In this document: piece by piece, positions 22,908 to 38,673 of the stretch
Position numbering within the stretch: position 1 is the first letter of the stretch
Layout: each line of letters starts with the position of its first letter
DNA from: Gaetbulibacter sp. 4G1
Lineage (GTDB): Bacteria; Bacteroidota; Bacteroidia; Flavobacteriales; Flavobacteriaceae
NCBI RefSeq assembly: GCF_002741945.1
Contig: NZ_MDVN01000020.1
Location: 372,001 to 436,000, forward strand
Reading direction: 5' to 3'
Length of the DNA stretch: 64,000 nucleotides
The notes under the pieces: generated by a model
The model's input: the letters and a program-made list of their open reading frames with translations, nothing else
The model's database searches: none
Told to the model about the DNA's origin: nothing
Made by a program: the position numbers and the translations under genes

Positions 22908-24908
22908 TTAATCTACATTATCGTGTAAAAAAGAATTGCTGCTTCTTAATTGAATATCATCATTATCATCTAAACCTATAGTTGTTCTAGACATATCGGT
23001 TTCGGAAGAGTGCTTTGCATCTTCTAAATTCACACCTTGACGTTTGTATGCTGGTACTTTTTCAATGTCATCAATCTTAGCATTATTGAATTTATAATTA
23101 AACTCTTTCATTTTACGTCTGCGTTCTTCTGCTCTTTCTATCAACAATTCTGAAATAGGACTGTTCATAGGATCAGCTTCTTCAACTGATGATTCTTCAA
23201 CGACTTCTTCTTTTAAAACCTTCTTTTCAAAAACAACATCATTATCTATTTCTTCTACAACTTCGTTAGATTCTGGTACTCTTTTATTCATTGCAGATTC
23301 TACCTCAGCATAATCATCTAACACATAGCGTACATCTCCTTTCTCATTTGTTTCATTCACCGTGATTAGCTCTACGTAATCTTTAACTGGAATATCTTTA
23401 GTTTCTTCATCTAATTGATAAGAAATAATATCCTCTTCGTTTACATCTTCTTCAATGTCTGAAGATAAGGGCAAATCGAATGTTAATGTTATTTGTTGTT
23501 CTTCTTCAATATAATCTGAAATCACCTCAACATCTGTTATATCTTCTAGGTCATCAGACATTCTTGTTACTGGCTTGATTATAAAATCTTCTTCTTCAAC
23601 AATATCGGCTTTAACTTCATCATAAACTACATCAATGTTTTTAATAATTTCTGATGTCGGAATTAGGTTTATGTCTTTTGAAAACACATCAATGTTTTCT
23701 GCAATAGAGTCTTCTTTTACAACTGTTTTTTGAGGTTGTTTTATTGGCTCTTCTTCTGATTCTAAGTCTAAAGTATGCCTAACTACTGGTGTCTCTTTCT
23801 TCTCTTCTAATTCAACTATAGGTTCAATAATAACAGGTTCAGCAGCTTTTACATTAGCATCTTCATCTTCACTTAATGAATGTACTACTTTTTTGGTTTC
23901 TGTATTAGAAATTTCATCTTGTTGCTCCACATTAAATCCAGTAGCTATAATGGTAACTGCGATAGATTCTTCTAATGCTTCATCTTCACCAACACCCATA
24001 ATAATATTTGCACCATGACCAGCTTCGGTTTGAATATGATCATTTATTTCTCCAATTTCATCAATAGTTATTTCATGCGATCCTGAAACAATTAGTAGCA
24101 ATACATTTTTAGCACCAGTAATTTTATTATCATTTAATAACGGCGAATCTAAAGCTTTGCGAATAGCATCTTGCGCACGATTTTGACCAGATGCTAATGC
24201 AGATCCCATAATAGCTGTTCCGCTGTTACTTAATACCGTTTTTGCGTCTCGTAAATCAATATTTTGTGTATAGTGATGTGTAATAACTTCGGCTATACCA
24301 CGAGCAGCAGTTGATAGCACTTCATCAGCTTTAGAAAAACCAGCTTTAAAACCAAGGTTTCCATAAACTTCGCGAAGTTTATTATTATTTATTACAATTA
24401 AAGAATCTACAACATCTCTTAATTTTTCAATTCCTTTTTGGGATTGTTCAATACGCATTTTACCTTCAAAAGCAAAAGGCATCGTTACAATACCAACTGT
24501 TAGAATATCTAAATCTTTAGCCATTTTGGCAATTATTGGAGCTGCACCTGTTCCTGTACCACCTCCCATTCCAGCTGTTATAAAAACCATTTTTGTATTA
24601 GTATCTAGCATTGTTGAAATGTCATCGAAACTTTCAACAGCAGACTGCTCTCCTATATCTGGGTTAGCACCGGCTCCTAGCCCTTCGGTTAAATTAACAC
24701 CTAATTGGATTTTGTTTGGAACACCACTATTTTGAAGCGCTTGTGCATCTGTATTACAGATGTAAAAATCGACTCCTTTAATACCTTGTTGGAACATATG
24801 GTTAATGGCATTACTACCACCGCCTCCAACACCAATAACTTTAATAACATTTGATTGATTTTTTGGTAAATCAAATGCGATGCTTTCGAATTCTTTTTTG
24901 CTGCTCAT
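22908..24908 (-). CDS. ftsZ: Cell division GTPase FtsZ with long acidic linker
   Basis: Tubulin-like GTPase that forms the Z-ring. The GTPase core (about 15-325) has GVGGGGSNA near the start, the tubulin signature GGGTGTG at 115-121 and the T7 segment QNIDLRDAK. After it comes a linker of nearly 300 residues dominated by glutamate and aspartate, making the protein 666 residues against the usual 380-450. The peptide that binds FtsA, normally at the very C-terminus, is recognisable as KVPAYKRQGV (about 617-626) but is followed by 40 more residues ending SNSFLHDNVD. Last gene of the dcw cluster. Confidence 0.97.
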   Translation of the reverse strand: MSSKKEFESIAFDLPKNQSNVIKVIGVGGGGSNAINHMFQQGIKGVDFYICNTDAQALQNSGVPNKIQLGVNLTEGLGAGANPDIGEQSAVESFDDISTMLDTNTKMVFITAGMGGGTGTGAAPIIAKMAKDLDILTVGIVTMPFAFEGKMRIEQSQKGIEKLRDVVDSLIVINNNKLREVYGNLGFKAGFSKADEVLSTAARGIAEVITHHYTQNIDLRDAKTVLSNSGTAIMGSALASGQNRAQDAIRKALDSPLLNDNKITGAKNVLLLIVSGSHEITIDEIGEINDHIQTEAGHGANIIMGVGEDEALEESIAVTIIATGFNVEQQDEISNTETKKVVHSLSEDEDANVKAAEPVIIEPIVELEEKKETPVVRHTLDLESEEEPIKQPQKTVVKEDSIAENIDVFSKDINLIPTSEIIKNIDVVYDEVKADIVEEEDFIIKPVTRMSDDLEDITDVEVISDYIEEEQQITLTFDLPLSSDIEEDVNEEDIISYQLDEETKDIPVKDYVELITVNETNEKGDVRYVLDDYAEVESAMNKRVPESNEVVEEIDNDVVFEKKVLKEEVVEESSVEEADPMNSPISELLIERAEERRRKMKEFNYKFNNAKIDDIEKVPAYKRQGVNLEDAKHSSETDMSRTTIGLDDNDDIQLRSSNSFLHDNVD

Positions 24909-24964: not shown

Positions 24965-26272
24965 TTACTCAGCGTTATCTAAAAAATCTTTAACGCGTTC
25001 TGTTAGCTTATCGAGAAACGACCGTCGTTCTTTAACTGGTTTCTCTTTAATTTCTTCTTCATGATTTTCTTCTTCTTCAATTTCTTTTTGCTGCTGCTCT
25101 ACTTTTTTTCTCTCTTGACGTTTTAAACCATCCAAAACCAATCCTACTGCTGTTGCATACAAAGGGCTAGTAATGTCATCATCACTATCACCTGCTAAAT
25201 GCTCGTTAGGATAGCCTATTCTGGTATCCATTCCCGTAATATATTCTACTAATTGTTTTAAGTGCTTTAACTGGCTCCCTCCTCCAGTTAAAACAATACC
25301 AGCTATTAGTTTCTTCTTTTGTTCTTCGTGTCCGTAATTTTTAATCTCAACATAAACTTGCTCTACAATTTCTACAACACGAGCATGAATAATTTTTGAT
25401 AAATTCTTTAATGTTATTTCTTTTGGTTCTCTACCACGTAATCCTGGAATAGAAACAATCTCATTGTCTTTATTCTCACCTGGCCATGCTGAACCAAATT
25501 TTATTTTTAAAAGCTCTGCTTGCTTTTCTATAATTGAGCAGCCTTCTTTTATATCTTCAGTAATCACATTTCCTCCAAACGGGATAACAGCAGTATGACG
25601 AATTATACCATCTCTAAAAATAGCTAAATCGGTAGTTCCTCCTCCTATATCAATTAATGCTACACCAGCCTCTTTCTCTTCTTGACTTAATACTGCATTT
25701 GCTGATGCTAACGGCTCCAATGTAATGCCTTCTAAATTTAAACCTGCGCTTTGTACACAACGACCTATGTTTCGAATTGAAGACACTTGCCCAACCACTA
25801 CATGGAAGTTTGCTTCTAGCCTACCTCCATACATACCTATAGGTTCTTTTATTTCGGCTTGTCCATCAACTTTATATTCTTGCGGCAATACGTGAATTAT
25901 TTCTTCACCCGGAAGCATTACCAATTTATGAACTTGATTGATGAGTCTATCTATATCTTCTTCATCTATAACATGTTCCGAATTTGGTCTGGTAATATAA
26001 TCGCTATGCTGAAGACTACGAATATGTTGCCCTGCTATACCAACGGTTACACCCATAATTTTCATATCAGCAGCAACTTCAGCCTCTTGAACTGCCTGCT
26101 GAATTGATTGAATAGTTTGCGTAATATTGTTTACAACACCACGATGTACACCTAAGCTTTTAGATTTACCAATACCTAAAATTTCAACTTTGCCGTATTC
26201 GTTTTTACGACCAATCATAGCCACAATTTTTGTGGTTCCTATGTCTAATCCTACTGCTAAATTATGCTCCAT
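24965..26272 (-). CDS. ftsA: Cell division protein FtsA
   Basis: Actin-like ATPase that tethers FtsZ to the membrane and recruits later division proteins. The N-terminal VGLDIGTTKIVAMIG is the phosphate-1 motif, VALIDIGGGTTDLAIF (about 200-215) is phosphate-2 and GIVLTGGGSQL (about 324-334) is the adenosine motif. A charged, glutamate-rich stretch from about 393 leads to a C-terminal amphipathic helix (FLDKLTERVKDFLDNAE) that fits the membrane-targeting sequence. Starts 3 nt after ftsQ and precedes ftsZ by 56 nt. Confidence 0.97.
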   Translation of the reverse strand: MEHNLAVGLDIGTTKIVAMIGRKNEYGKVEILGIGKSKSLGVHRGVVNNITQTIQSIQQAVQEAEVAADMKIMGVTVGIAGQHIRSLQHSDYITRPNSEHVIDEEDIDRLINQVHKLVMLPGEEIIHVLPQEYKVDGQAEIKEPIGMYGGRLEANFHVVVGQVSSIRNIGRCVQSAGLNLEGITLEPLASANAVLSQEEKEAGVALIDIGGGTTDLAIFRDGIIRHTAVIPFGGNVITEDIKEGCSIIEKQAELLKIKFGSAWPGENKDNEIVSIPGLRGREPKEITLKNLSKIIHARVVEIVEQVYVEIKNYGHEEQKKKLIAGIVLTGGGSQLKHLKQLVEYITGMDTRIGYPNEHLAGDSDDDITSPLYATAVGLVLDGLKRQERKKVEQQQKEIEEEENHEEEIKEKPVKERRSFLDKLTERVKDFLDNAE

Positions 26273-26275
26273 GGT

Positions 26276-26998
26276 TTACGTTTTGGTACACACTACTTGG
26301 TTTTCAAATTGCAAATTAACTTTGCTATAATTATTAAGCGTTTTTTCTTTTTGATTTTTTTGATAAAACGCTTTTAGGTTATTAATTTTTTTGTCTAAAA
26401 AACTAACATCACCTAATTGAACTAAAAATTTGCATTGCCTAAGTTTCAAGTATATTTTTTTATTAACACTTTGATGAATTTCAATAACATTCTTTTTTAA
26501 GAAATCATCCGTATTAATTTTACTTGCTACTTTATAGACATTTTTTAAATTATTTTTTTCAATATAACCAGTAACTAAGGGTACTCTAGCTGAATAATTA
26601 TCAGATAACGGCATGTATAAACCTTCATCATCAATATAATAAGACGCATTTGTACTTACTCGTGCAATAGGTGTTTTTTGTTCAATTTCTGCATTAAGTG
26701 TACCATTTACAGCAACATACACTTCTGCAGTTTTTATCATTGGATTAGATTTTAGGGCATTTTCTAATTCATTCAAAACTAAAGTTTCTTTGGGTACATT
26801 TTTAACCCCTCTATAATTTTGTATTAACAATTTACTAACAGTCTCATTTGTAATAAAAAGGTTGTCGTCGCCAATAAACTCAACATTGGGCTTAGTTATT
26901 ACTCTTTGCCCATTTCTATTTGAAGAAAAGGCAAACAAGAAGACCACTAAACTTAGCAGAACAATCATTTTTATGTAACTCCAATTAACTCGCAACAC
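26276..26998 (-). CDS. ftsQ: Cell division protein FtsQ
   Basis: Bitopic membrane protein of the FtsQLB divisome subcomplex. It has a short cytoplasmic end, one transmembrane helix at about 7-24 and a periplasmic part with the POTRA-like region (FIGDDNLFITNETVSKLL) and the ALKSNPMIKTAEVYVAVNGTL strand pattern typical of FtsQ. At 240 residues it is short, as usual in Bacteroidota. Sequence conservation is low, so the assignment leans on position between murC and ftsA. The start overlaps the murC stop by 14 nt. Confidence 0.9.
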   Translation of the reverse strand: MLRVNWSYIKMIVLLSLVVFLFAFSSNRNGQRVITKPNVEFIGDDNLFITNETVSKLLIQNYRGVKNVPKETLVLNELENALKSNPMIKTAEVYVAVNGTLNAEIEQKTPIARVSTNASYYIDDEGLYMPLSDNYSARVPLVTGYIEKNNLKNVYKVASKINTDDFLKKNVIEIHQSVNKKIYLKLRQCKFLVQLGDVSFLDKKINNLKAFYQKNQKEKTLNNYSKVNLQFENQVVCTKT

Positions 26999-28337
26999 TT
27001 AAGGCCTTTTTTATATGTTTTACTTCCTCTCCTATATCACCGGCTCCTATTGTCAATACAATTTGAGCATTACTTTTTTCTATTTTTGAAAGTAATTCTG
27101 CTTTGCTTACTAGCAGCTTATTTTCATTATTCACTTTTCCTAATAACCAATAAGATGTTACACCCTCAATAGGTAGTTCTCTAGCAGGGTAAATATCTAA
27201 CAGTATTACCTCATCAAATTGCGATAAGCTTTTAGCAAATTCGTCAACAAAATCACGTGTTCTTGAATACAAATGAGGTTGAAAAATTGCCAATACTTTT
27301 TTACTAGGATACATTTCTCTAACCGCCTGATATACAGCATTAATTTCTTCTGGATGATGCGCATAATCATCAATAAAAACTAAATCATCAGTTTTTATAT
27401 GATATGTAAATCTTCTTTTCACACCTTTATAAGATGCTAAAGCATTGGCGAGCTGCTGGTTAGGGCAACCATATTCTACAGCCATCGCCAAGGCTATTAA
27501 TGCATTCGACAAATTATGTCTCCCAGGCAGGTTAAATTGTAAATTTTCCAGCACTGTTTTTGGCGTTTTCAAATCAAAAACATATGTGCCGTTTTTTATT
27601 TTTATATTTTGAATGGTATAATCTGAATTATCTTCAATTCCATAAGTAATTCCATGTAAAGGCAATCCGCTTTTAACGAATAGCTTCCCATTAGGTTTGA
27701 TTCGTTTCGAAAATGCTTTAAATGATTCGTGCAAAGCATCAGCCTCTCCATAAATATCCAAATGATCAGCGTCCATTGATGTTATGCATGCAAAGTTTGG
27801 TGATAGCGCTAAAAAGGATCTATCAAACTCATCAGCTTCAACAACCGAAACCTCATTACCTTTAAGTATTAAGTTAGAATTATAATTTTCACTAATACCT
27901 CCTAAAAAAGCTGTTAACTCCACACCACATTCATACATTAAATGCCCAAGAATGCTCGTAGTTGTGGTTTTTCCATGCGTACCAGCAATAGCTAAACAAA
28001 AAGTGTTTTCTGTTATTAATCCTAATACTTTAGATCGTTTTAAAACTTGAAAACCATTAGTTTTAAAATAATTATATTCTGCATGACTCTTAGGGATAGC
28101 TGGAGTATAAACTACCAGTGTATTTTCAGGATTTAAAAATTTATTATCTATATTTTCTATTGAATCTTCAAAATGTATATCTATACCTAAAACGATTAAC
28201 TCGTCAATAATAGTTGTTTTAGTTTTATCATAGCCAGATACATTCTTATTATTAGCATTAAAATATCGCGCTAAAGCACTCATACCAATACCTCCAATAC
28301 CAATAAAATAGATGTTATGTATCTTGTTTAAATTCAT
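26985..28337 (-). CDS. murC: UDP-N-acetylmuramate--L-alanine ligase
   Basis: Adds L-alanine to UDP-MurNAc, the first amino acid of the peptidoglycan stem peptide. N-terminal Rossmann motif IGIGGIGMSALA at about 12-23, ATP loop GTHGKTTTT at about 120-128, the ADEFDRSF segment at about 167-174 and the C-terminal FQPHLYSRTRDF block at about 353-364 all match MurC. 450 residues, normal. Begins one nucleotide after the murG stop on the minus strand and overlaps ftsQ by 14 nt, so translation is probably coupled. Confidence 0.97.
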   Translation of the reverse strand: MNLNKIHNIYFIGIGGIGMSALARYFNANNKNVSGYDKTKTTIIDELIVLGIDIHFEDSIENIDNKFLNPENTLVVYTPAIPKSHAEYNYFKTNGFQVLKRSKVLGLITENTFCLAIAGTHGKTTTTSILGHLMYECGVELTAFLGGISENYNSNLILKGNEVSVVEADEFDRSFLALSPNFACITSMDADHLDIYGEADALHESFKAFSKRIKPNGKLFVKSGLPLHGITYGIEDNSDYTIQNIKIKNGTYVFDLKTPKTVLENLQFNLPGRHNLSNALIALAMAVEYGCPNQQLANALASYKGVKRRFTYHIKTDDLVFIDDYAHHPEEINAVYQAVREMYPSKKVLAIFQPHLYSRTRDFVDEFAKSLSQFDEVILLDIYPARELPIEGVTSYWLLGKVNNENKLLVSKAELLSKIEKSNAQIVLTIGAGDIGEEVKHIKKALSVAS

Positions 28338-29432
28338 TTATTTTTTAAGTAGCTTATCTATTTCGTCTACTATTTCTTTTGTAGCATTAATTAATGCCAG
28401 TTTTTTTATGTTTTCTCCTAATTCCTTTTGTTTATCTGGAGATGCTATGAGTTGTGAAAACTTATTCTCAAAATCGACATCTAAATCTTCTTCTTTAATT
28501 AGTAATGCTGCATCATTATTTACTACCGCCATAGCATTTTTTGTTTGATGATCTTCGGCTACATTTGGCGACGGAATAAAAACTACAGGCTTACCTACAA
28601 TACAAAGTTCTGAAACCGAAATTGCTCCTGCTCTGGAAATCACTACATCTGCAGCTGCATAGGCATAGTCCATATTATTTAAAAACTCATAAACTTGGAT
28701 TCCTTCGGTATTGTTATAAATTTTATACTGCTGATAATACAGCTTACCACATTGCCAAATTATTTGCACATTTTGAGTATCAAAAAAATCTAACTCCTTT
28801 TCAATTAGTTCATTTATTCGTCTAGAGCCTAAACTACCTCCAATAACTAACAGTGTATATTTACCATGTTTTAAATTAAAATGGTTTTTGGCATCAACTG
28901 TTTTTGTATCAATATCCAACAAATCTTGTCGCACTGGATTTCCGGTTTTAATCATTTTCTCATTAGGAAAAAAACGCTCTAGTCCATCATATGCAACACA
29001 TATTTTATTAGCCTTTTTAGCCAATAACTTGTTCGTTATTCCTGGAAAAGAATTTTGCTCTTGTATTACACTTGGTATTTTATTTGAAGCTGCTACATAT
29101 AACAATGGGCCGCTTGCAAAACCACCTGTGCCAATAGCAACATCTGGCTTAAAGGATTTAATAATTTTGCGAGCTTTCCATAAACTACTAATCAATTTAA
29201 AAGGAAACATTAAATTTTTTAATGTAAGCTTTCGCTGAATTCCAGAAATCCACAAACCCTCTATATCATACCCAGCTTGTGGTACTTTTTCCATTTCCAT
29301 TCTATCCTTAGCTCCAACAAATAAAAATTCAGCATCTGGATAACGAAACTTTATTTCGTTAGCAATGGCAATAGCAGGGTAAATATGACCTCCCGTTCCG
29401 CCTCCAGATAATATGATTTTATAACTACTCAT
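28338..29432 (-). CDS. murG: MurG, undecaprenyl-PP-MurNAc-pentapeptide GlcNAc transferase
   Basis: Peripheral membrane GT28 enzyme that adds GlcNAc to lipid I, giving lipid II. Glycine loops [15 protein letters not shown] at about 10-24 and [10 protein letters not shown] near residue 195, IQEQNSFPG at about 128-136, and the donor-binding [12 protein letters not shown] near 270 are all canonical. Length 364 normal. Sits between ftsW and murC with no spacer nucleotides on either side. Confidence 0.97.
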
Positions 29433-30626
29433 TTAAATTGTTTCCGATAGAATTTCTAAGGGATTATCCTCATTACTTTCTTTTTCCTTTATTTCTTCTC
29501 GTTTAGCACTTACACTAAGTATAATTCCTATAGCCAAGCATGTCATCCAAATAGATGTTCCTCCGCTACTAATTAATGGCAATGTTTGTCCTGTTACTGG
29601 AAATAATTCTACTGCAACTGCCATATTAATTAAAGCCTGAAACACAATAGGTAAACCAACGCCAAGAACTAAAAGTTTTCCAAAAATAGTATCAGACTTT
29701 TGTGCTGCAATAACTATTCTAAACAACAACCACATATATAAAATCATGATTGTAAAGCCACCTAACAATCCATACTCTTCAATAATTATGGCGAATATAA
29801 AATCGGATGACGATTGTGGTAAAAAATTCTTTTGTATACTTTTTCCTGGACCTACTCCTTGAATACCGCCAGAGGCTATAGCAATTTTAGCTTTCTCTAT
29901 TTGATAATCGGCTTGAGTGTCTTCTCCATTTGAATAATTTTTAATTCTATTTTCCCAAGTAGTCACCTTAACATTTAATGGCCCTGAAGTTAATTTTGCA
30001 GCCATCACAAAAAGCACTAAAGCTAATAATCCAGAGCCTAAAATCACTCCTATATAGCGCATAGGATACCCTCCTAAAAAAACCAATACTAAAACCATTA
30101 AAAACATTATGGCAGCTGTTGAAAAATTTGAAGGAAGAATTAATGCTAAAATTAAAAATACTGGCACCCAAAGTGGCAATATAGATTCTTTAAAAGTTAT
30201 TACTCTATCCTTTACTTTAGACATATACCTCGCTACATAAACCATAAGTACTACTAATGCCAATGTTGATGTTTGAAATGACATCCCCACAATTGGTATC
30301 TGAATCCACCTACTTGCACTTGCTCCTTCAACAACCGTTCCTTGTAACATTGTAATGCCCAACAACACTAAAACAATAGGAATCATTACTAATGATAATC
30401 CTCGAAAATATCGGTATGGTATTTTATGCACGCCATACATTATTGCAAACCCTAAAAACAAATGCATAAAGTGTTTAACAAAAAACGCAAAAGTATTTCC
30501 GTTTCCGCCTCTATATGCCAAATTACTAGCAGCACTATAAACAGGCAAAAACGATAGTATAGCCAACAACGCAACTATTGCCCAAATTAAACGATCTCCC
30601 TTTATGTTTTTAAATAATGTTTGCAC
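29433..30626 (-). CDS. ftsW: FtsW, SEDS-family septal peptidoglycan polymerase
   Basis: Polytopic SEDS glycosyltransferase that polymerises lipid II at the septum with the class B PBP FtsI. About ten hydrophobic segments; recognisable family motifs are ASNLAYRGGN near the N-terminus, GGIQGVGPGKSIQKNFLPQSSSDFIFAII in outline around 253-281, and the C-terminal GQTLPLISSGGTS (about 347-359). The short C-terminal tail is glutamate-rich. Encoded between murD and murG. Confidence 0.95.
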   Translation of the reverse strand: MQTLFKNIKGDRLIWAIVALLAILSFLPVYSAASNLAYRGGNGNTFAFFVKHFMHLFLGFAIMYGVHKIPYRYFRGLSLVMIPIVLVLLGITMLQGTVVEGASASRWIQIPIVGMSFQTSTLALVVLMVYVARYMSKVKDRVITFKESILPLWVPVFLILALILPSNFSTAAIMFLMVLVLVFLGGYPMRYIGVILGSGLLALVLFVMAAKLTSGPLNVKVTTWENRIKNYSNGEDTQADYQIEKAKIAIASGGIQGVGPGKSIQKNFLPQSSSDFIFAIIIEEYGLLGGFTIMILYMWLLFRIVIAAQKSDTIFGKLLVLGVGLPIVFQALINMAVAVELFPVTGQTLPLISSGGTSIWMTCLAIGIILSVSAKREEIKEKESNEDNPLEILSETI

Positions 30627-30633
30627 TTATTTT

Positions 30634-31971
30634 TTATAAATTTCTTACTGCATTTTTAAATTGACGTCCTCTGTCTTCATAGTTTTCAAACAAATCGAAA
30701 CTAGCACACGCAGGCGACAACAATACATTATCTCCAGCTTCGGCTATTTTATAGGCTATTTTTACAGCTTCGCTCATAAATTGTGTTTCAATTATAATGT
30801 CAACCATATTACCAAACGTATTCATCAGTTTTTCGTTGTCAACACCTAAGCAAATAATTGCTTTTACTTTTTCGTTTACAAATTGAAACAATTCTTCATA
30901 ATCATTTCCTTTATCTGTTCCACCAACAATCCAAACCGTTGGCGTATCCATACTTTCCAAAGCGTAATATGTTGCGTTTACATTGGTGGCTTTTGAGTCG
31001 TTTATGTATTGAACTTTATTAATTTTTAACACTTGCTCTAAACGATGTTCGACTCCTTGAAAATTTTCTAAGCTCTCACGAATGGTTTGCTTTCTAATTT
31101 TTAATAAATGTGCAACAGTTGAGGCTGCCATTGCATTTTTAATGTTATGTTTTCCCTCTAATGCTAGATTTGTTGTTGGCATAATTATTTGGTTGTTATC
31201 TATTGTTATTATAATTTTTTCTTTGTCTAAATACGCGCCATTTTTAATAGTTTTTTTTAATGAAAATGGCAATAATGTTGATTGAACTGGGTGTTTTTTT
31301 AAATGATTAGTGACTACTTCATCATCTGCATCATAAATCAAATAATCATGTTTTGTTTGATTTATGGCTATTCTAAATTTAGAAGCGATATAGTTTTCAA
31401 ATTGATAATCATATCTATCCAAATGATCAGGAGTTATATTAGTAATTACTGCTATATGCGGTTTAAAATCAATAATATCATCTAATTGAAAACTACTGAT
31501 TTCAAGTACATAATTTTTAAAATCATGTTCCAAAACCTGTTTAGCAAAACTGTCGCCAATATTTCCCCCTAACCCAACATTTAGCTCTTGCTTTATAATA
31601 TGATGCGTTAACGATGCTGTGGTTGTTTTACCATTACTTCCAGTAATTCCAACAATTATAGCATCAGTATATTTTGATGCAAATTCAATTTCTGAAACCA
31701 CCTTAATTCCTTTAGTTCGAATTTGTTTTATCAAATCAACCTTATCTGGAATTCCTGGGCTTTTCATGACAGTCTTCGCATTTAGAATTTTTTCTTCAGA
31801 ATGCTTTTCATCTTCCCATTCAATCTCATTATGTATAAGAACTTGTTTATATTTTTCTTTTATTTTTCCTTTATCCGAAACAAAAACCTCGTATCCTTTT
31901 TTCTTTCCTAAAAGCGCTGTTCCCACACCACTTTCTCCTGCTCCTAATATGACTAATCTTTGTTTTGTCAT
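30634..31971 (-). CDS. murD: UDP-N-acetylmuramoylalanine--D-glutamate ligase
   Basis: Adds D-glutamate to UDP-MurNAc-L-Ala. The N-terminal domain begins LVILGAGESGVGTA (UMP-binding); the ATP loop is GITGSNGKTTTASL at about 108-121, the central domain has NITPDHLDRYD at about 178-188 and YINDSKATNVNAT (about 315-327), and the C-terminus has LSPACASFDLFENYEDRG. Length 445 normal. A 24-nt hairpin repeat occupies the spacer upstream of it. Confidence 0.97.
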   Translation of the reverse strand: MTKQRLVILGAGESGVGTALLGKKKGYEVFVSDKGKIKEKYKQVLIHNEIEWEDEKHSEEKILNAKTVMKSPGIPDKVDLIKQIRTKGIKVVSEIEFASKYTDAIIVGITGSNGKTTTASLTHHIIKQELNVGLGGNIGDSFAKQVLEHDFKNYVLEISSFQLDDIIDFKPHIAVITNITPDHLDRYDYQFENYIASKFRIAINQTKHDYLIYDADDEVVTNHLKKHPVQSTLLPFSLKKTIKNGAYLDKEKIIITIDNNQIIMPTTNLALEGKHNIKNAMAASTVAHLLKIRKQTIRESLENFQGVEHRLEQVLKINKVQYINDSKATNVNATYYALESMDTPTVWIVGGTDKGNDYEELFQFVNEKVKAIICLGVDNEKLMNTFGNMVDIIIETQFMSEAVKIAYKIAEAGDNVLLSPACASFDLFENYEDRGRQFKNAVRNL

Positions 31972-32020: not shown

Positions 32021-33262
32021 CTATCGTATTTTCAAGGTCACTATTGACAGTATCGCTAACAAAATGCCAATAATCCAAAAGCGTGTTACTATTTTACTTT
32101 CGTGATATCCCGATTTTTGATAGTGATGATGTAATGGTGACATTTTAAAAATGCGACGTCCTTCCCCGTATTTTTTCTTGGTGTACTTAAACCAACTCAC
32201 TTGCATAATTACAGACATATTTTCTGCTAAAAATATACCGCACAACACTGGAATTAACCACTCTTTACGAACTGCAATCGCTATAACTGCTATAACACCC
32301 CCTATAGTTAAACTTCCTGTATCACCCATAAAAACCTGTGCAGGAAAAGTGTTATACCATAAAAAGCCAATAAGTGCTCCTACGAAAGCCGCGATATAAA
32401 TAGTAATTTCTTCAACCCTTGGGATATACATAATATTGAGGTACTCTGAGAAAATAATATTACCAGAAACCCATGCAAAAATTCCCAAAGTGAGCACTAT
32501 TATTGCTGAAGTACCAGCTGCTAATCCATCAATTCCGTCTGTAAGATTTGCGCCATTTGAAACCGCAGTTATTATTAAAATTGATATTAGAATAAATATA
32601 ATCCACGCATACTTTTCCAAGTCTGGACTAATCCATGTAATTAAATCTGAATAATCAAACTCGTTTCCTTTTACAAAGGGAATGGTTGTTTTTGTTGATT
32701 TTACTTCCTCCTTAAATAGTTTTGAAGCTTCTATTTTTGGGTTTTCGGCTAAAAGTTCCTGCTGTACTTCTAACGGAAGTTTTTCTTTCATCGTTACATC
32801 ATCATGAAAAAACAAGGTAGTACCTATAATAATTCCAAGCCCAACTTGTCCTAAGATTTTGAAACGCCCTTTTAATCCTTCTTTATCATTTTTAAACTTC
32901 TTTAAATAATCATCAATAAATCCAATAACTCCCATCCAAAGCGTAGTTACAATCAATAAAATGATGTAAATATTTTCCAATTTAGCGAGTAATAATACTG
33001 GTATTAAAGTGGCAAGAATAATAATGATTCCGCCCATAGTTGGCGTTCCTGCTTTTTGCGCTTGTCCATCTAAACCCAAATCCCTAATAGTCTCTCCCAT
33101 TTGTTTTTTCTGAAGAAAACGAATTATTCTTTTTCCATATATAGTAGATATAAGCAACGATAAAATCATAGCCAAAGCTGCACGAAACGTTAAGAATCCG
33201 AAAAGTGTAGCTCCTGGAAATTGGAATTGTTTTTCTAAATATTCAAATAGGTAATACAACAT
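32021..33262 (-). CDS. mraY: Phospho-N-acetylmuramoyl-pentapeptide transferase
   Basis: Integral membrane enzyme that loads phospho-MurNAc-pentapeptide onto undecaprenyl phosphate to make lipid I. The sequence has the family's catalytic aspartates in [12 protein letters not shown] (about 113-124), [12 protein letters not shown] (about 240-251) and the histidine motif [13 protein letters not shown] near the C-terminus. Compared with E. coli (360 residues) there is an extra hydrophilic segment of about 50 residues (about 157-210, around [15 protein letters not shown]), which I know as a Bacteroidota feature. Confidence 0.97.
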
Positions 33263-33280
33263 TTATATATTGATTATTTT

Positions 33281-34744
33281 TTATTTCTGTAATTGCTTTA
33301 AAAACTCTTGTACTATTTTATAATCATCAAAATCAAATCTTTGGCCTTTAATTTCTTGATAGGTTTCGTGCCCTTTGCCCGCTATTAAAATGATATCGTT
33401 AGGTTGCGCTAACTGACAAGCTGTTTTAATAGCTTGTTTTCTATCGGATATGGTTACAATTTTTTTAAAATTTTGAGGCTCAACACCTTTTTCTATGTCT
33501 TCAAGAATAACCTCAGGAGCTTCACTTCGCGGATTATCACTTGTAAAAATCACTTTAGTACTTAATGCTGATGCAATGTGTCCCATTTTTGGGCGCTTAG
33601 TTTTATCTCTATCTCCACCGCAACCAACGACGGTTATTAATTCTTCATTTTTAGTACGAATACTATTGATGGTTTCCAGCACATTTTTTAAAGCATCTGG
33701 CGTATGCGCATAATCTACAATTGCAGTGATTTTTTCATCTGAAATGATATATTGAAATCGTCCGCTTACACTTTCTAGCTCGCTTATCAATCTTAGAATT
33801 TCAACTTTTTCTAAACCTAACAATTCTGCAGTAGCATAAATTGCCAATACATTGTAGGCATTAAAATTTCCGATAAGACGTGTCCAAACTTCGCTATCAT
33901 TAACCTTAAGCAACAAGCCTCCAAACTGATTTTCTAGAATTTGTGCTTTATAGTCAGCATATCCTTTTAAAGCATAAGTGTATTTTTTTGCTTGTGTGTT
34001 TTGCAGCATTACCAATCCGTTTTTATCATCTGTATTCACAAGGGCAAATGCTTTTGATGAGAGCGTATCAAAAAACGTTTTTTTCACATCTCGGTATTCC
34101 GAAAATGTATTGTGATAATCTAAATGATCGTGAGACAGATTGGTAAAAATGCCACCTTCAAAACATAATCCCTCAATTCGGTTTTGATGAATTCCGTGAG
34201 AACTAACTTCCATAAAGCAAAACTCGACTCCAGCATCATTCATTTCCTTTAAATACTTATTTATAGTTAAAGAATCTGGAGTTGTATGTGTTGCTTTATA
34301 TACCTTATTATCTACTAATATCTTTACTGTTGAAAGCAAACCTACTTTGTACCCTGCCTTTTTAAACAATTGACTTAACAAACTTGCAACAGTGGTTTTA
34401 CCATTTGTTCCTGTAACCCCAACAAGCTTTAAGTTTTCTGAAGGCGCATCATAAAAATTAGACGCCATAATAGCTAAAGCACTATTAGAATTATCAACCT
34501 CGACATAAGTAATACCATCTATCAAATTATCTGGTAAAGTTTCACAAATAATTGCTATTGCTCCGTTTTTTATAGCAACATCAATGAATTTATGCCCATC
34601 AACCACATTACCTTTAATAGCAACAAATAAATCGGTCTTTTTAATGTTTCTAGAATCAAAATGAATATTATTAATAGACACACCAGTACTTCCAACAACA
34701 GCGTTGAGAGTTACTTTATATAATATGTCTTTTAATATCATCAT
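33281..34744 (-). CDS. murE: UDP-MurNAc-tripeptide synthetase MurE
   Basis: Adds the third residue of the stem peptide. ATP loop GVTGTNGKTTVASLL at about 108-122, MEVSSHG at about 152-158 and the substrate-specificity motif DNPRSEAP near residue 404: the DNPR form is the one that selects meso-diaminopimelate rather than lysine. 487 residues. The start codon overlaps the ftsI stop (ATGA), so the two are translationally coupled. A second ATG directly follows the first. Confidence 0.97.
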   Translation of the reverse strand: MMILKDILYKVTLNAVVGSTGVSINNIHFDSRNIKKTDLFVAIKGNVVDGHKFIDVAIKNGAIAIICETLPDNLIDGITYVEVDNSNSALAIMASNFYDAPSENLKLVGVTGTNGKTTVASLLSQLFKKAGYKVGLLSTVKILVDNKVYKATHTTPDSLTINKYLKEMNDAGVEFCFMEVSSHGIHQNRIEGLCFEGGIFTNLSHDHLDYHNTFSEYRDVKKTFFDTLSSKAFALVNTDDKNGLVMLQNTQAKKYTYALKGYADYKAQILENQFGGLLLKVNDSEVWTRLIGNFNAYNVLAIYATAELLGLEKVEILRLISELESVSGRFQYIISDEKITAIVDYAHTPDALKNVLETINSIRTKNEELITVVGCGGDRDKTKRPKMGHIASALSTKVIFTSDNPRSEAPEVILEDIEKGVEPQNFKKIVTISDRKQAIKTACQLAQPNDIILIAGKGHETYQEIKGQRFDFDDYKIVQEFLKQLQK

Positions 34745-36756
34745 GATGCTTTTAAAACAATGGTTTGATTATCTTTTAGCTTTACATTTTTATTGATTGA
34801 TTGTTGTTTTACAATACCACTACCACTAAGTTTTACTTTTACATTTACATCCATATTTTCCAATAATGCCAAAGCATCCATAGCAGGTAAGCCCACCACA
34901 TTAGGCATTATGGTTTTATAGGTTTGAGCTGTTTTGTAAAAATTTTCGTATTCTTTTTCAGTTGATGCGGTTTTAACTTCCAAGGACTCTACCTCATCAA
35001 TAATAGGTGTATCTGTAAATATTTTTTGAGCCACTTTTTTGAACACAGGCCCAGACACATCTGCTCCATAATACCCAATACCTTTTTCTGGCTCATGTAT
35101 AACTACTATGCATGAGTATTTGGGGTTATCTGCTGGAAAATACCCAGCAAAAGATGAGATATAATTTAATTTTGATTTGTCTCTATAATCCTTTTGACAA
35201 GTCCCAGTTTTTCCTGCCATTGAGAAGTTTTTAGAATACAATCTATTACCAGTTCCGTGTTTTTTCTCAACAACATTTTTTAACAATTGCTGAACTTTTG
35301 CAACAGTTTCTTTTGAGCATACTCGTTTGTTGATTACTTCTTTTTCAAAAGGCACAATGGTTTTATCAAATTCTTTAACTTCTTTTAAAAACTGTGGTTT
35401 CACCATCACGCCATCATTAGCAATAGCATTATAAAAGGTTAATGTTTGTAATGGCGTGAATGACACACCGTAACCAAACGCCATCCATTGCAATGCGATA
35501 CCACTCCAACGTTTATTTTTTATTCTTGGGTCTGGAATAATTGGACTTGATTCTCCAATAATTGGTAATCCCAACTTTTCATTCAAACTCATATCATAAA
35601 GCCTATCAACAAACTTGCTAGGCTTTTCTTTATAAGCATGATCTATAGCCGTTACTATACCAGTATTAGAAGATAACTCAAAAGCTTTAGACACGGTTAT
35701 TTTCCCGTAACCTTTATGATTCGAATCGTCTACATGTTTACCGTAAAAAGTTAATCTTCCTTTTTTTGTATCTACTACATCACTTGTATCTATAACTTTA
35801 TCTTCAAGAGCTGCTGTAATAGCCATTAATTTAAACGTAGACCCTGGCTCGTGAGATTCCCATACAGCATAATTTCTCCTTTCATAATAATTACCAAGCG
35901 AATTTCTACCTAGGTTTGCTATAGCTTTTACTTCTCCTGTTTTGGTTTCCATAACCACCACACAGCCATGATCTGCTTTATATTTCTCTAATTGTTCCAA
36001 AAGTGCATGATGCGCTATATCTTGAATGTTTACATCAATGGTAGTATAGACATCATAACCGTCTTTAGGTTCAATTTCGTTAGCATCACTTAATGGCTTC
36101 CATTGCCCTTTTCCTATTTGTTGCTTTTTTCTTTTCCCATCGGTGCCTCTCAAATATTGAATTCCGTAGGCGCCATCAATTCCAGGACGTGTTACATTTC
36201 CCTTTTCATCAAAACGTTCGTAACCAATAGTACGCTGTGCAATACCACCCATTGGATGTTCTCGTTTTGTTGTTTGCTCTACTATCAATCCACCTTTAAA
36301 AGCACCAAGATTTAGCATTGGAAAATTTCGAATTCTTATATAATCTGAATACCCAATATTTCTAGCCAACAAATAATATCTATTTTTATTAGCTCTAGCT
36401 TTTCTAATTTCTTTTTGATAATAGCTTGAAGGTTTTCCTGAGTATTTTGAAAGAGAATCGCTTAAAGGCTTCAAATGCTTTTCGAACGTTTTTGAAGAAG
36501 GTGTAATAGCATCTATTCTAATATCATATTTTGGAACCGATGTTGCTAGCAAATTACCGTTTACAGAATATACATTTCCTCTATTTGCAGGAATAATTAC
36601 ATCTTTTACTATGCGCTCACTTGCCATAGCTTTATACTTATCACCTTGCAAAAATTGAATACTCAGCAATTTAAACACCACAGCAACGCCGAAGATGAAC
36701 ATACATCCTGCTATAAAATACAATCGGTTTAATATGCCTTTCTCGTTTACTGCCAA
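34741..36756 (-). CDS. ftsI: FtsI/PBP3-type transpeptidase with PASTA domain
   Basis: Class B penicillin-binding protein that cross-links septal peptidoglycan with FtsW. One N-terminal transmembrane helix (about 11-35), a PBP dimerisation domain, then the transpeptidase with the three active-site motifs: STFK with nucleophile S306, SSN (in FELSSNTGI) and KTGT (in MAGKTGTCQ). The last 60 residues (PNVVGLPAMDALALLENM onward) form a single PASTA domain, which E. coli FtsI lacks. 671 residues. Follows ftsL after 9 nt. Confidence 0.95.
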   Translation of the reverse strand: MAVNEKGILNRLYFIAGCMFIFGVAVVFKLLSIQFLQGDKYKAMASERIVKDVIIPANRGNVYSVNGNLLATSVPKYDIRIDAITPSSKTFEKHLKPLSDSLSKYSGKPSSYYQKEIRKARANKNRYYLLARNIGYSDYIRIRNFPMLNLGAFKGGLIVEQTTKREHPMGGIAQRTIGYERFDEKGNVTRPGIDGAYGIQYLRGTDGKRKKQQIGKGQWKPLSDANEIEPKDGYDVYTTIDVNIQDIAHHALLEQLEKYKADHGCVVVMETKTGEVKAIANLGRNSLGNYYERRNYAVWESHEPGSTFKLMAITAALEDKVIDTSDVVDTKKGRLTFYGKHVDDSNHKGYGKITVSKAFELSSNTGIVTAIDHAYKEKPSKFVDRLYDMSLNEKLGLPIIGESSPIIPDPRIKNKRWSGIALQWMAFGYGVSFTPLQTLTFYNAIANDGVMVKPQFLKEVKEFDKTIVPFEKEVINKRVCSKETVAKVQQLLKNVVEKKHGTGNRLYSKNFSMAGKTGTCQKDYRDKSKLNYISSFAGYFPADNPKYSCIVVIHEPEKGIGYYGADVSGPVFKKVAQKIFTDTPIIDEVESLEVKTASTEKEYENFYKTAQTYKTIMPNVVGLPAMDALALLENMDVNVKVKLSGSGIVKQQSINKNVKLKDNQTIVLKAS

Positions 36757-36765
36757 GATTCGCTT

Positions 36766-37083
36766 TTAATTTTGGGATTTTACTTTTATTTTTTTTGGCG
36801 GAATCACCGAAGGCGACAACCCTTTTTCTTTCATTTTACTTACTACAGCTGATTCCATTTTTAGCCGCATCAGTTTTGATCTACCATCAATAAATGCCGA
36901 ACGCATTTCATTAACTTCATTTTTTAATCGTGCAATCTCATATACTTTTTTATCAGCACTATGCGAACTCGCAATCATAACTATAGCTAATCCAGATATA
37001 AAAAGAATCATGCGCCAATTCTTAAACGAATCGTCGCTCACTAAAAATGTTCCTTTTAATATGCTATAAATACTTTTCTTCAT
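36766..37083 (-). CDS. ftsL: FtsL-like cell division protein
   Basis: Small bitopic protein of 105 residues: cytoplasmic N-terminus of about 24 residues, one transmembrane helix (about 25-42), then a periplasmic helix with coiled-coil character (EIARLKNEVNEMRSAFIDG). Conservation is weak; the assignment comes from size, topology and position between rsmH and ftsI. It overlaps the rsmH stop by one nucleotide (TAATG arrangement). Confidence 0.88.
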   Translation of the reverse strand: MKKSIYSILKGTFLVSDDSFKNWRMILFISGLAIVMIASSHSADKKVYEIARLKNEVNEMRSAFIDGRSKLMRLKMESAVVSKMKEKGLSPSVIPPKKIKVKSQN

Positions 37084-37991
37084 TAAATTTTTTCAGCAAT
37101 TCTAAGTTTTGCACTTCTTGCCCTACTGTTTATACTTATCTCTTCTTTAGTTGGAACAATTAATCCATTTACTTTTTTTAATGGTACTTCAAAATTCCCA
37201 AACATGTCTCGCTCTGGCTCTCCTTCAAACAATCCATTTCTTATAAAACGCTTTACCAATCTATCTTCTAAAGAATGATAGGATATAAAACTTAAACGGC
37301 CTCCAACTTTTAATATTTCTGGCGTTTGCAACAAAAACTCTTTTAAAACCTCTATTTCTTGATTTACTTCAATTCTAATAGCTTGGTAAATTTGAGCTAA
37401 CACCTTGTTTTCATGTCGTGGCGGCAAAAACTTTCTCAATACTTTTTTTAATTGTTCACTCGTTTTAATTTCTTCCGTTTTTCTATATTCAACAATAAGC
37501 CTCGCCATTGCCGGTGCAGCCCTTAATTCCCCATACTGCAAAAACACTTGTTTCAACTGCTCTTCTTCATATTCATTAACCACATGAAATGCCGACATAT
37601 CATTTTGTTGATTCATTCGCATATCTAAATCAGCTTCAAATCTTGTAGAAAAACCTCGTTCAGCTACATCAAACTGATGTGAAGACACTCCAAAATCTGC
37701 CAAAACACCATCTATCTGCTTTACACCATGAAACCTTAAAAAGCGTTTTACATATCTAAAATTTTCATGTATCAACGTAAATCGTTCATCATCAATTGTA
37801 TTTTCAAGAGCATCTAAATCTTGATCAAAAGCAAACAACCTACCCTCTTCACCAAGATGTTTTAGTATTTCTTTACTGTGTCCACCTCCTCCAAAGGTTA
37901 CATCTACATATACACCATCTTCTTTAATATTTAAACCATCAACGGTTTCTTTTAACAAAACTGGATTATGATATTCCATGGTCGTCATCAT
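37083..37991 (-). CDS. rsmH: 16S rRNA (cytosine-N4)-methyltransferase RsmH
   Basis: Methylates N4 of C1402 in 16S rRNA. The start region YHNPVLLKETVDGL and the SAM motif VDVTFGGGGHS at about 28-38 are characteristic; ISYHSLEDRLVK (about 245-256) is the second conserved block and the C-terminus has the family's SRARSAKLR. 302 residues. The start at 37991 overlaps mraZ by 26 nt; the internal ATG at 37979 (MEYHNPVLL) is an equally good start and still overlaps. Confidence 0.96.
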   Translation of the reverse strand: MMTTMEYHNPVLLKETVDGLNIKEDGVYVDVTFGGGGHSKEILKHLGEEGRLFAFDQDLDALENTIDDERFTLIHENFRYVKRFLRFHGVKQIDGVLADFGVSSHQFDVAERGFSTRFEADLDMRMNQQNDMSAFHVVNEYEEEQLKQVFLQYGELRAAPAMARLIVEYRKTEEIKTSEQLKKVLRKFLPPRHENKVLAQIYQAIRIEVNQEIEVLKEFLLQTPEILKVGGRLSFISYHSLEDRLVKRFIRNGLFEGEPERDMFGNFEVPLKKVNGLIVPTKEEISINSRARSAKLRIAEKI

Positions 37992-38436
37992 CTTGTCCCA
38001 TTACCTCTTCAGCTAAATCAGCAAAGTCTATTGCAGCATCATCAATAGCCTGTTCATACCTATCTTTATCCCAGATTTCAATAATATTTACCGCTGGAGA
38101 AATCACTATGTTTTTTGAAATACCTGCAAAACCAATAAGATCTTTCGGAATTAGCAAGCGTCCACTACCATCAATATCTACCATTCTTGCCCCTGCATTA
38201 AAACGGCGAATAAAATCATTGTTCTTTTTCTTAAACCTATTAAGCTTATTTACTTTTTGCATCACTGTTTGCCACTCGCTCATAGGATACAATTCTAAAC
38301 ACGGTTGAAAAACAGAACGCCTTAACACGAACCCATCTTCTATAATAGACACCAACTGCTTTTTCATGCCAGAAGGCATCATAAGCCTGCCTTTCGCATC
38401 TACTTTACAATCGTATGTCCCTATTAATGAGTTCAA
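37966..38436 (-). CDS. mraZ: Division/cell wall cluster regulator MraZ, TTG start
   Basis: AbrB-like DNA-binding protein that represses the dcw operon from repeats in its promoter. It has two copies of the SpoVT/AbrB fold; the signature DxKGR is in CKVDAKGRLMMP (about 10-21) and a second, divergent copy in VDIDGSGRLLIPKDL (about 86-100). The only start that keeps the conserved N-terminus (MNSLIGTYDCKVDAKGR) is TTG at 38436. 156 residues, normal. Direct repeats fitting an MraZ box lie 50-79 nt upstream. First gene of the cluster. Confidence 0.95.
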   Translation of the reverse strand: MNSLIGTYDCKVDAKGRLMMPSGMKKQLVSIIEDGFVLRRSVFQPCLELYPMSEWQTVMQKVNKLNRFKKKNNDFIRRFNAGARMVDIDGSGRLLIPKDLIGFAGISKNIVISPAVNIIEIWDKDRYEQAIDDAAIDFADLAEEVMGQDDDDHGIS

Positions 38437-38468: not shown

Positions 38469-38476
38469 CAAATATA
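38469..38476 (-). promoter_or_regulatory. Promoter -7 box of the dcw cluster
   Basis: The minus strand reads TATATTTG, a perfect TAnnTTTG, 33 nt before the mraZ start. No TTG -33 element is visible: the MraZ-type repeats occupy that position. Confidence 0.6.
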
Positions 38477-38485
38477 TTGAAAAAT

Positions 38486-38515
38486 ATCCCACATTTTACC
38501 ACTTTACTGCACTTT
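38486..38515 (-). promoter_or_regulatory. Probable MraZ operator: three 10-bp direct repeats
   Basis: On the minus strand three consecutive 10-mers read AAAGTGCAGT, AAAGTGGTAA and AATGTGGGAT. Each starts with AA(A/T)GTG, in exact 10-bp register. Known MraZ boxes are AAAGTG(T/G)-N3 repeats in Mollicutes and TGGG repeats with 10-bp period in E. coli. The array overlaps the expected -33 region of the promoter, so bound MraZ would block RNA polymerase. Confidence 0.78.
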
Positions 38516-38673
38516 GTTAATAATTTTTCGATGAAGTACCATTTTAAATAGATAATAAAAAGCAAAAAATATTTTAGTTGCTCACTGTCAACCTGTTACA
38601 TAAAAGAGTTTTATTTAAACACTTTGTTAACATCTTAATTCAAAACAATTATGCCAGAGCTTAAATTAAAATG
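38516..38673. other. Rest of the divergent gap between mraZ and the hydrolase gene
   Basis: After the MraZ-type repeats and before the plus-strand promoter this AT-rich stretch contains no reading frame, hairpin or repeat that I can support. Confidence 0.5.

Follow-up and report, generated by a model that had tools for sequence, protein, structure and literature searches.

A DnaA-type box adjoins the predicted MraZ operator at the dcw promoter of Gaetbulibacter and of other Bacteroidia

The closest described counterpart of the site analysed here is the MraZ box of E. coli, which Eraso et al. reportedly located at the promoter Pmra in 2014 and which is said to serve autorepression. In Bacteroidota, promoters read by sigma-A combine a TTG at -33 with a -7 box that follows it by 17-23 nt. 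The -7 element has the consensus TAnnTTTG (excerpt of PMC9723704). MraZ represses in both E. coli and M. genitalium (excerpt of PMC8475190), and the MraZ box of Mollicutes reads AAAGTG[T/G] (same excerpt, citing Fisunov et al. 2016). The replication initiator DnaA recognizes the consensus TTWTNCACA, and the base-specific residues of the E. coli protein are R399, P423, D433, H434, T435 and H439 (excerpt of PMC7561715). DnaA also acts as a transcription factor at ftsZ and dnaB of Caulobacter and at ftsL of B. subtilis (excerpt of PMC8203912), so that DnaA control of division genes has precedent.

The window, i.e. the whole stretch of 64,000 nucleotides that was analysed, carries a dcw cluster on its minus strand. 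The cluster opens with mraZ (37966-38436, minus strand; 156 aa, with a TTG start at 38436), a call backed by TIGR00242 (106.9 bits against a cut-off of 98.35) and by Pfam MraZ. This is the single mraZ place in the genome, where the two domain matches both fall within one gene. From here a same-strand run of division and wall genes spanning about 15.5 kb extends to ftsZ. The run comprises rsmH (mraW; 37083-37991), which overlaps mraZ, an ftsL-like gene (36766-37083; Pfam FtsL_2), a penicillin-binding protein gene in the place of ftsI (34741-36756), for which the listed models all score below their own cut-offs, murE (33281-34744), mraY (32021-33262), murD (30634-31971), an ftsW-like gene (29433-30626) with ftsW as best match, below its cut-off, murG (28338-29432), murC (26985-28337), a 240-aa open reading frame in the place of ftsQ, between murC and ftsA (26276-26998), ftsA (24965-26272) and, as the final dcw gene, ftsZ (22908-24908), after which a YqeY-like gene comes next. 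The reading frame in the ftsQ place has no Pfam match at 0.001 and no NCBIfam match at 1e-30.

Upstream of mraZ the minus strand holds three adjacent 10-mers, as a sequence-only reading of this DNA had described: AAAGTGCAGT (repeat 1, 38506-38515), AAAGTGGTAA (repeat 2, 38496-38505) and AATGTGGGAT (repeat 3, 38486-38495), the last being followed by nine bases and then by the -7 promoter element TATATTTG (38469-38476, minus strand), which has the form TAnnTTTG. Repeat 1 is degenerate, with GTGC in place of the GTGG of the family, and it is so throughout the genus (GTGC or GTGT in 4/4 genomes, the window's own included). A spaced pattern built from the repeats has one match in the window, with 0 mismatches; if as many as 3 mismatches are tolerated, the expectation is 0.58 matches, and 45/100 shuffles contain at least one. 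Across the whole genome, GTGG-N6-GTGG-N6-GTG with one mismatch gives 4 matches against 4 in the reversed control, and the three further one-mismatch matches, sought as other MraZ targets, are thus no more than the control level. Because this short core occurs at control level genome-wide, the repeats are unremarkable by themselves and conservation must carry the case for an operator. A second TTAACAAAGTGTTT is located 110 bp upstream of repeat 1 (38617-38630, minus strand) and keeps its form (GATGTTAACAAWGYGTTT) across the genus, judged from 4 genomes; it is perhaps a decayed second operator.

The gene itself is nearly universal in the window's family, with mraZ found in 144 of 149 genomes. 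For its upstream region 102 family rows were compared, i.e. the window's own genome, 30 loci and 71 further loci or stretches, mostly but not strictly one per genus; the congeners L003, L004 and L006 were excluded and the own genus counted once, and counts out of 101 also exclude L011, which lies at a contig start. Three GTGG units with a 10-bp period are kept across these 102 genomes at 94-100% per base, figures that arise partly by construction because the register of each row was set by its best triple-GTGG score. Two features treated below are free of this effect: how far the repeats stand from the -7 box, and a conserved block upstream of them. Furthermore, when named genomes were scanned for the family pattern, which included this upstream block, at least 118 matches emerged; among the 118 listed, 117 precede mraZ (114 by script and 3 by reading translations) and one lies at a contig end, and they are mostly from Flavobacteriaceae (judged among 80 of the matches listed). 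A comparison of mraZ upstream regions from the family, which the sequence-only reading had proposed as a check, finds the repeats kept in 102 genomes, and the scan finds them at mraZ. This upholds its claim that the three 10-bp repeats constitute the predicted MraZ operator of the dcw cluster.

The position of this operator relative to the promoter is likewise fixed. TAnnTTT(G) is present in 98/101 family rows, in 97 of these 98 it stands 10-12 nt after the third GTGG, and a TTG placed 17-23 nt before it was found in 0/98. Other TAnnTTTG sites, taken as a control for the absent -33 element, also had 0 with TTG, but they number just 6 and are too few to inform. Two earlier suggestions are borne out in this way: that the repeats cover the -33 region of the dcw promoter, and that no TTG is seen there. 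A sigma-70 promoter at the repeats had also been considered (5 matches against 2.2 in shuffles) and was rejected as the wrong promoter type for this group.

A different arrangement is seen in E. coli, where TTGACA-N17-GTAAAC is followed by AGTGGGAAAT TGTGGGGCAA AGTGGGAATA, so that the repeats begin 37 bp downstream of the first base of the -35 hexamer, i.e. at about +1 (manual count). Of 22 loci (L037-L066) from the phylum's other classes, 19 have period-10 GTG repeats at a distance of 36-40 bp from a preceding -35-like word (TTGAC, CTTGC or TTGCT, sought 30-60 bp upstream), which places the operator at about +1 outside the class as well; no such pair of GTG repeats was found in 3/22. Among 81 Bacteroidia loci beyond the window's family, TAnnTTY follows the third unit by 10-12 nt in 56 and more closely in 9, and was not found after it in 16. 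In Bacteroidia the operator thus precedes the -7 box, over -33, whereas E. coli and the loci outside the class have it at about +1. This runs against the earlier suggestion that the repeat form is closer to that of Mollicutes than to that of E. coli, since E. coli, like most loci from the phylum's other classes, shares the GTGG core and the 10-bp period. With core and period shared and the position shifted, it is the place of the operator that differs, not the form of the repeat. MraZ structures are available as 1n0e, 9qlg, 9sx6 and 9qlr.

A second conserved block, TTATNAACA, emerged from the family comparison; it occupies -11 to -3 relative to the first GTG and had been missed by the sequence-only reading. 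In the window this block is the DnaA-type box TTATTAACA (38515-38523, minus strand), which abuts repeat 1. TTATNAACA stands at -11 or -12 in 91/101 family rows, where 0.04 are expected from the local background rate. The word TTATNMACA is not itself rare, with 9 occurrences in the window against 14.8 expected, and a search with TTATNCACA alone stayed below the control in each of 4 genomes (strands combined, among the matches listed). The box of the window differs from TTWTNCACA, the E. coli consensus, by one mismatch at base 6, and A occupies base 6 in 93/95 boxes of the family. One family member (L139, G201) has TTATCCACA, a canonical DnaA box, and in two others (L025, L081) the box is inverted. 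Given the base-6 mismatch in the window and the mostly inverted consensus matches elsewhere, the site is named DnaA-type rather than a proven DnaA box. In 25/102 family rows the box is flanked on its other side by a fourth GTGG, at -21; at the other offsets from -40 to -5 the count is 0-2.

The box is not confined to the family. In a survey of the class, mraZ was present in 122/129 genomes, and the comparison drew on 81 loci that represent 52 Bacteroidia families other than the window's (24 new loci, 40 picked stretches at 1-3 per family, and 17 from another list). Of these loci 60/81, in 42/52 families, have TTWTNMACA no more than 30 bp from the first repeat, against a background of 23/883 windows of 28 bp; no box was found at this distance in 21/81, for example in the families coded f5, f8 and f9. 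Box forms were counted in a search window two bases shorter, which yields 57/81, and among these 57 the forms are TTTTCAACA (19), TTATTAACA (11), TTTTCCACA (10), TTATCAACA (7), TTATCCACA (6) and others (4). Base 3 is W and base 5 is variable, in line with the DnaA consensus, and 18/57 match TTWTNCACA, 5 of them forward and 13 inverted. Among these 13 inverted boxes with C at base 6 (C6), 11 read TGTGGAWAA and so contain GTGG, and such boxes could be MraZ sites. Outside the class, 0/22 loci have a box within 30 bp; within 200 bp a box occurs in 4/22 loci, against 1/22 background windows.

The same box recurs in pairs at other replication genes. A search of 12 genomes for two TTATNMACA within 30 bp gave 58 matches against 43 in the reversed control (summed rows), and the recurring places were upstream of the HU gene and upstream of dnaB, both named from protein sequence and dnaB also by family. 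Paired boxes precede the HU gene in 12/12 genomes, with a spacing of 20 bp in 11 and 21 bp in one; in the window's genome they are 20 bp apart (G000:C17:99378-99406, L203). Pairs with 20-bp spacing and at most one mismatch precede dnaB in 10/17 family genomes compared with 0/270 background windows, and the window's genome has a one-mismatch pair of this spacing there (G000:C6, L333). At least one box is found within 420 bp of dnaB in 16/17 family genomes, a figure that is weak alone given a chance rate of 0.43 per window. In the dnaB pair, A and C interchange at base 6 (TTATCCACA, TTATTCACA, TTATYAACA), and an f5 genome (G212) has TTATGCACA-N11-TTTTCCACA at this gene. Before dnaA, mixed clusters with A and C at base 6 occur in two f3 genomes (G152, G228), and among 13 family rows there is no box in 8 and one in 3, the upstream DNA being lacking in 2. 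The origin oriC was not found through box pairs within 30 bp in the 12 genomes, a search that retrieved 11-12 bp tandems in unrelated places. At one further locus (L372, G145), four DnaA-type boxes are packed within 110 bp (about 466-575) at the start of an open reading frame that resembles purM.

If DnaA reads these boxes, its base-contacting residues might be expected to vary with base 6. By motif reading, most DnaA proteins of the window's family, and those of many other families, carry Ala at both positions equivalent to E. coli 423 and 435 (SLAxIG...DHAT), and a second group of DnaA proteins has mostly Lys at 423 and Ser or Thr at 435 (SLKxIG...DH[ST]T). DHAT goes with A6 in 23/25 and DH[S/T]T with C6 in 14/16, an agreement in 37/41 genomes with a Fisher p of 3.5e-7 before descent is counted. 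For forward boxes alone the figures are 21/23 and 4/6, in total 25/29 with p 0.008, again before descent is counted; much of the agreement is thus carried by inverted boxes. A DnaA tree computed without domain IV shows 3 residue changes and 4 box changes, giving at most 2 concordant and 0 opposed independent pairs, so that the association is not significant once descent is counted. The exceptions are G193 and G353 (DHAT with C6) and both f2 genomes (DHST with A6). G201, which falls within the family on the tree (fork 98/99), is an instructive case in that it combines Ser with TTATCCACA. Box labels were assigned by hand; 17/58 DnaA rows carry none, and G066 received no label because its C6 match is an MraZ repeat; 30 DnaA genomes had been picked for their known mraZ upstream DNA, and 2 gave no DnaA match.

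These observations suggest a site for two proteins, in which MraZ probably represses from the -33 position and DnaA would bind beside it, tying dcw transcription to replication. MraZ bound to the three GTGG repeats, at about -50 to -24 from a predicted start point, would bar the sigma factor from the -33 region and so repress its own operon, and such autorepression is plausible by analogy with the work on E. coli and M. genitalium (excerpt of PMC8475190). The DnaA-type box TTATTAACA, at about -60 to -52 and directly abutting repeat 1, would have DnaA as its likeliest ligand. DnaA would then probably compete or cooperate with MraZ, and dcw transcription would follow the state of DnaA or of replication, as would transcription from the HU and dnaB promoters, where the boxes are paired. 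DnaA might act by activation, de-repression or co-repression; de-repression through displacement of MraZ would be a first guess, on account of the fourth GTGG beyond the box in a quarter-sized subset of the family (25/102).

Among the alternatives, the one that survives best is plain autorepression by MraZ without DnaA, with TTATNAACA as a fourth, inverted or specialised MraZ contact, and we consider it unlikely. It draws on the fixed register of the block with the repeats and on its location, in the same 25/102 rows, between a GTGG at -21 and the GTGG at 0. The reverse complement of TGTGGTAAAA is moreover TTTTACCACA, which is near TTTTCCACA, and the C6 forms TTWTCCACA contain CCAC or, inverted, GTGG; among the C6 boxes of other Bacteroidia 13/18 are inverted. 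Yet the repeats keep GTGG at 94-100% per base, whereas the box read backwards has GTT in 93/101 family rows. The pairs at HU and dnaB, moreover, appear by eye without a tandem GTGG array, and base 6 tracks the DnaA residues, albeit with few independent changes; all of this argues against a further MraZ contact. Slightly less probable again is that the box is bound by another replication-linked regulator with a DnaA-like site: base 6 is usually A in the window's family and 8/13 family rows have no box before dnaA, as such a regulator would allow. Against it stand the canonical DnaA boxes that several families have at this place, and the agreement between residues and base 6. An activating MraZ that substitutes for the missing -33 element by keeping RNA polymerase in place at the -7 box is improbable to the same degree, for although the absence of TTG (0/98) and the constant spacing of the repeats from the -7 box (97/98) would suit it, an operator over -33 fits steric repression as well, and in both E. 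coli and M. genitalium MraZ is a repressor (excerpt of PMC8475190).

Joint control of the dcw promoter by MraZ and DnaA, as preferred here, may extend well beyond the window. Our confidence is little better than even that much of Bacteroidia shares one composite operator under such joint control, in which the ancestral MraZ site would have moved from +1 to -33 and the box would have been gained, with DnaA and the box having changed together in Flavobacteriaceae and many other families (A6, with Ala at the position of E. coli 435). If this is true, the level or nucleotide state of DnaA would set the transcription of dcw, dnaB and HU together. The DnaA-type box that many families retain in fixed place at the operator of the whole dcw cluster, along with the pairs at dnaB and HU, offers a concrete and testable case for transcriptional coupling of division to replication, and does so in a large, little-studied class.

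Taken alone, an MraZ operator is ordinary; what is new is the composite of this operator with a DnaA-type box. Among the papers listed in a survey of the literature on MraZ, DnaA and dcw, no title or abstract opening described a DnaA box in an MraZ operator. The MraZ box of E. coli resembles the site in its three GTGG repeats with a 10-bp period before mraZ, but it is located at about +1, whereas the repeats of the window cover -33 and have a DnaA-type box adjoining. The Mollicutes box is alike in its AAAGTG repeats before mraZ and differs in that a DnaA box goes unmentioned in the excerpt of PMC8475190. The DnaA-regulated ftsZ and dnaB of Caulobacter and ftsL of B. subtilis share with the present case DnaA boxes or binding at division and helicase genes. 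In contrast to those systems, for which the review PMC8203912 does not name mraZ (0 occurrences), the box of the window abuts an MraZ operator, and a box in this place recurs in 42/52 other families of Bacteroidia.
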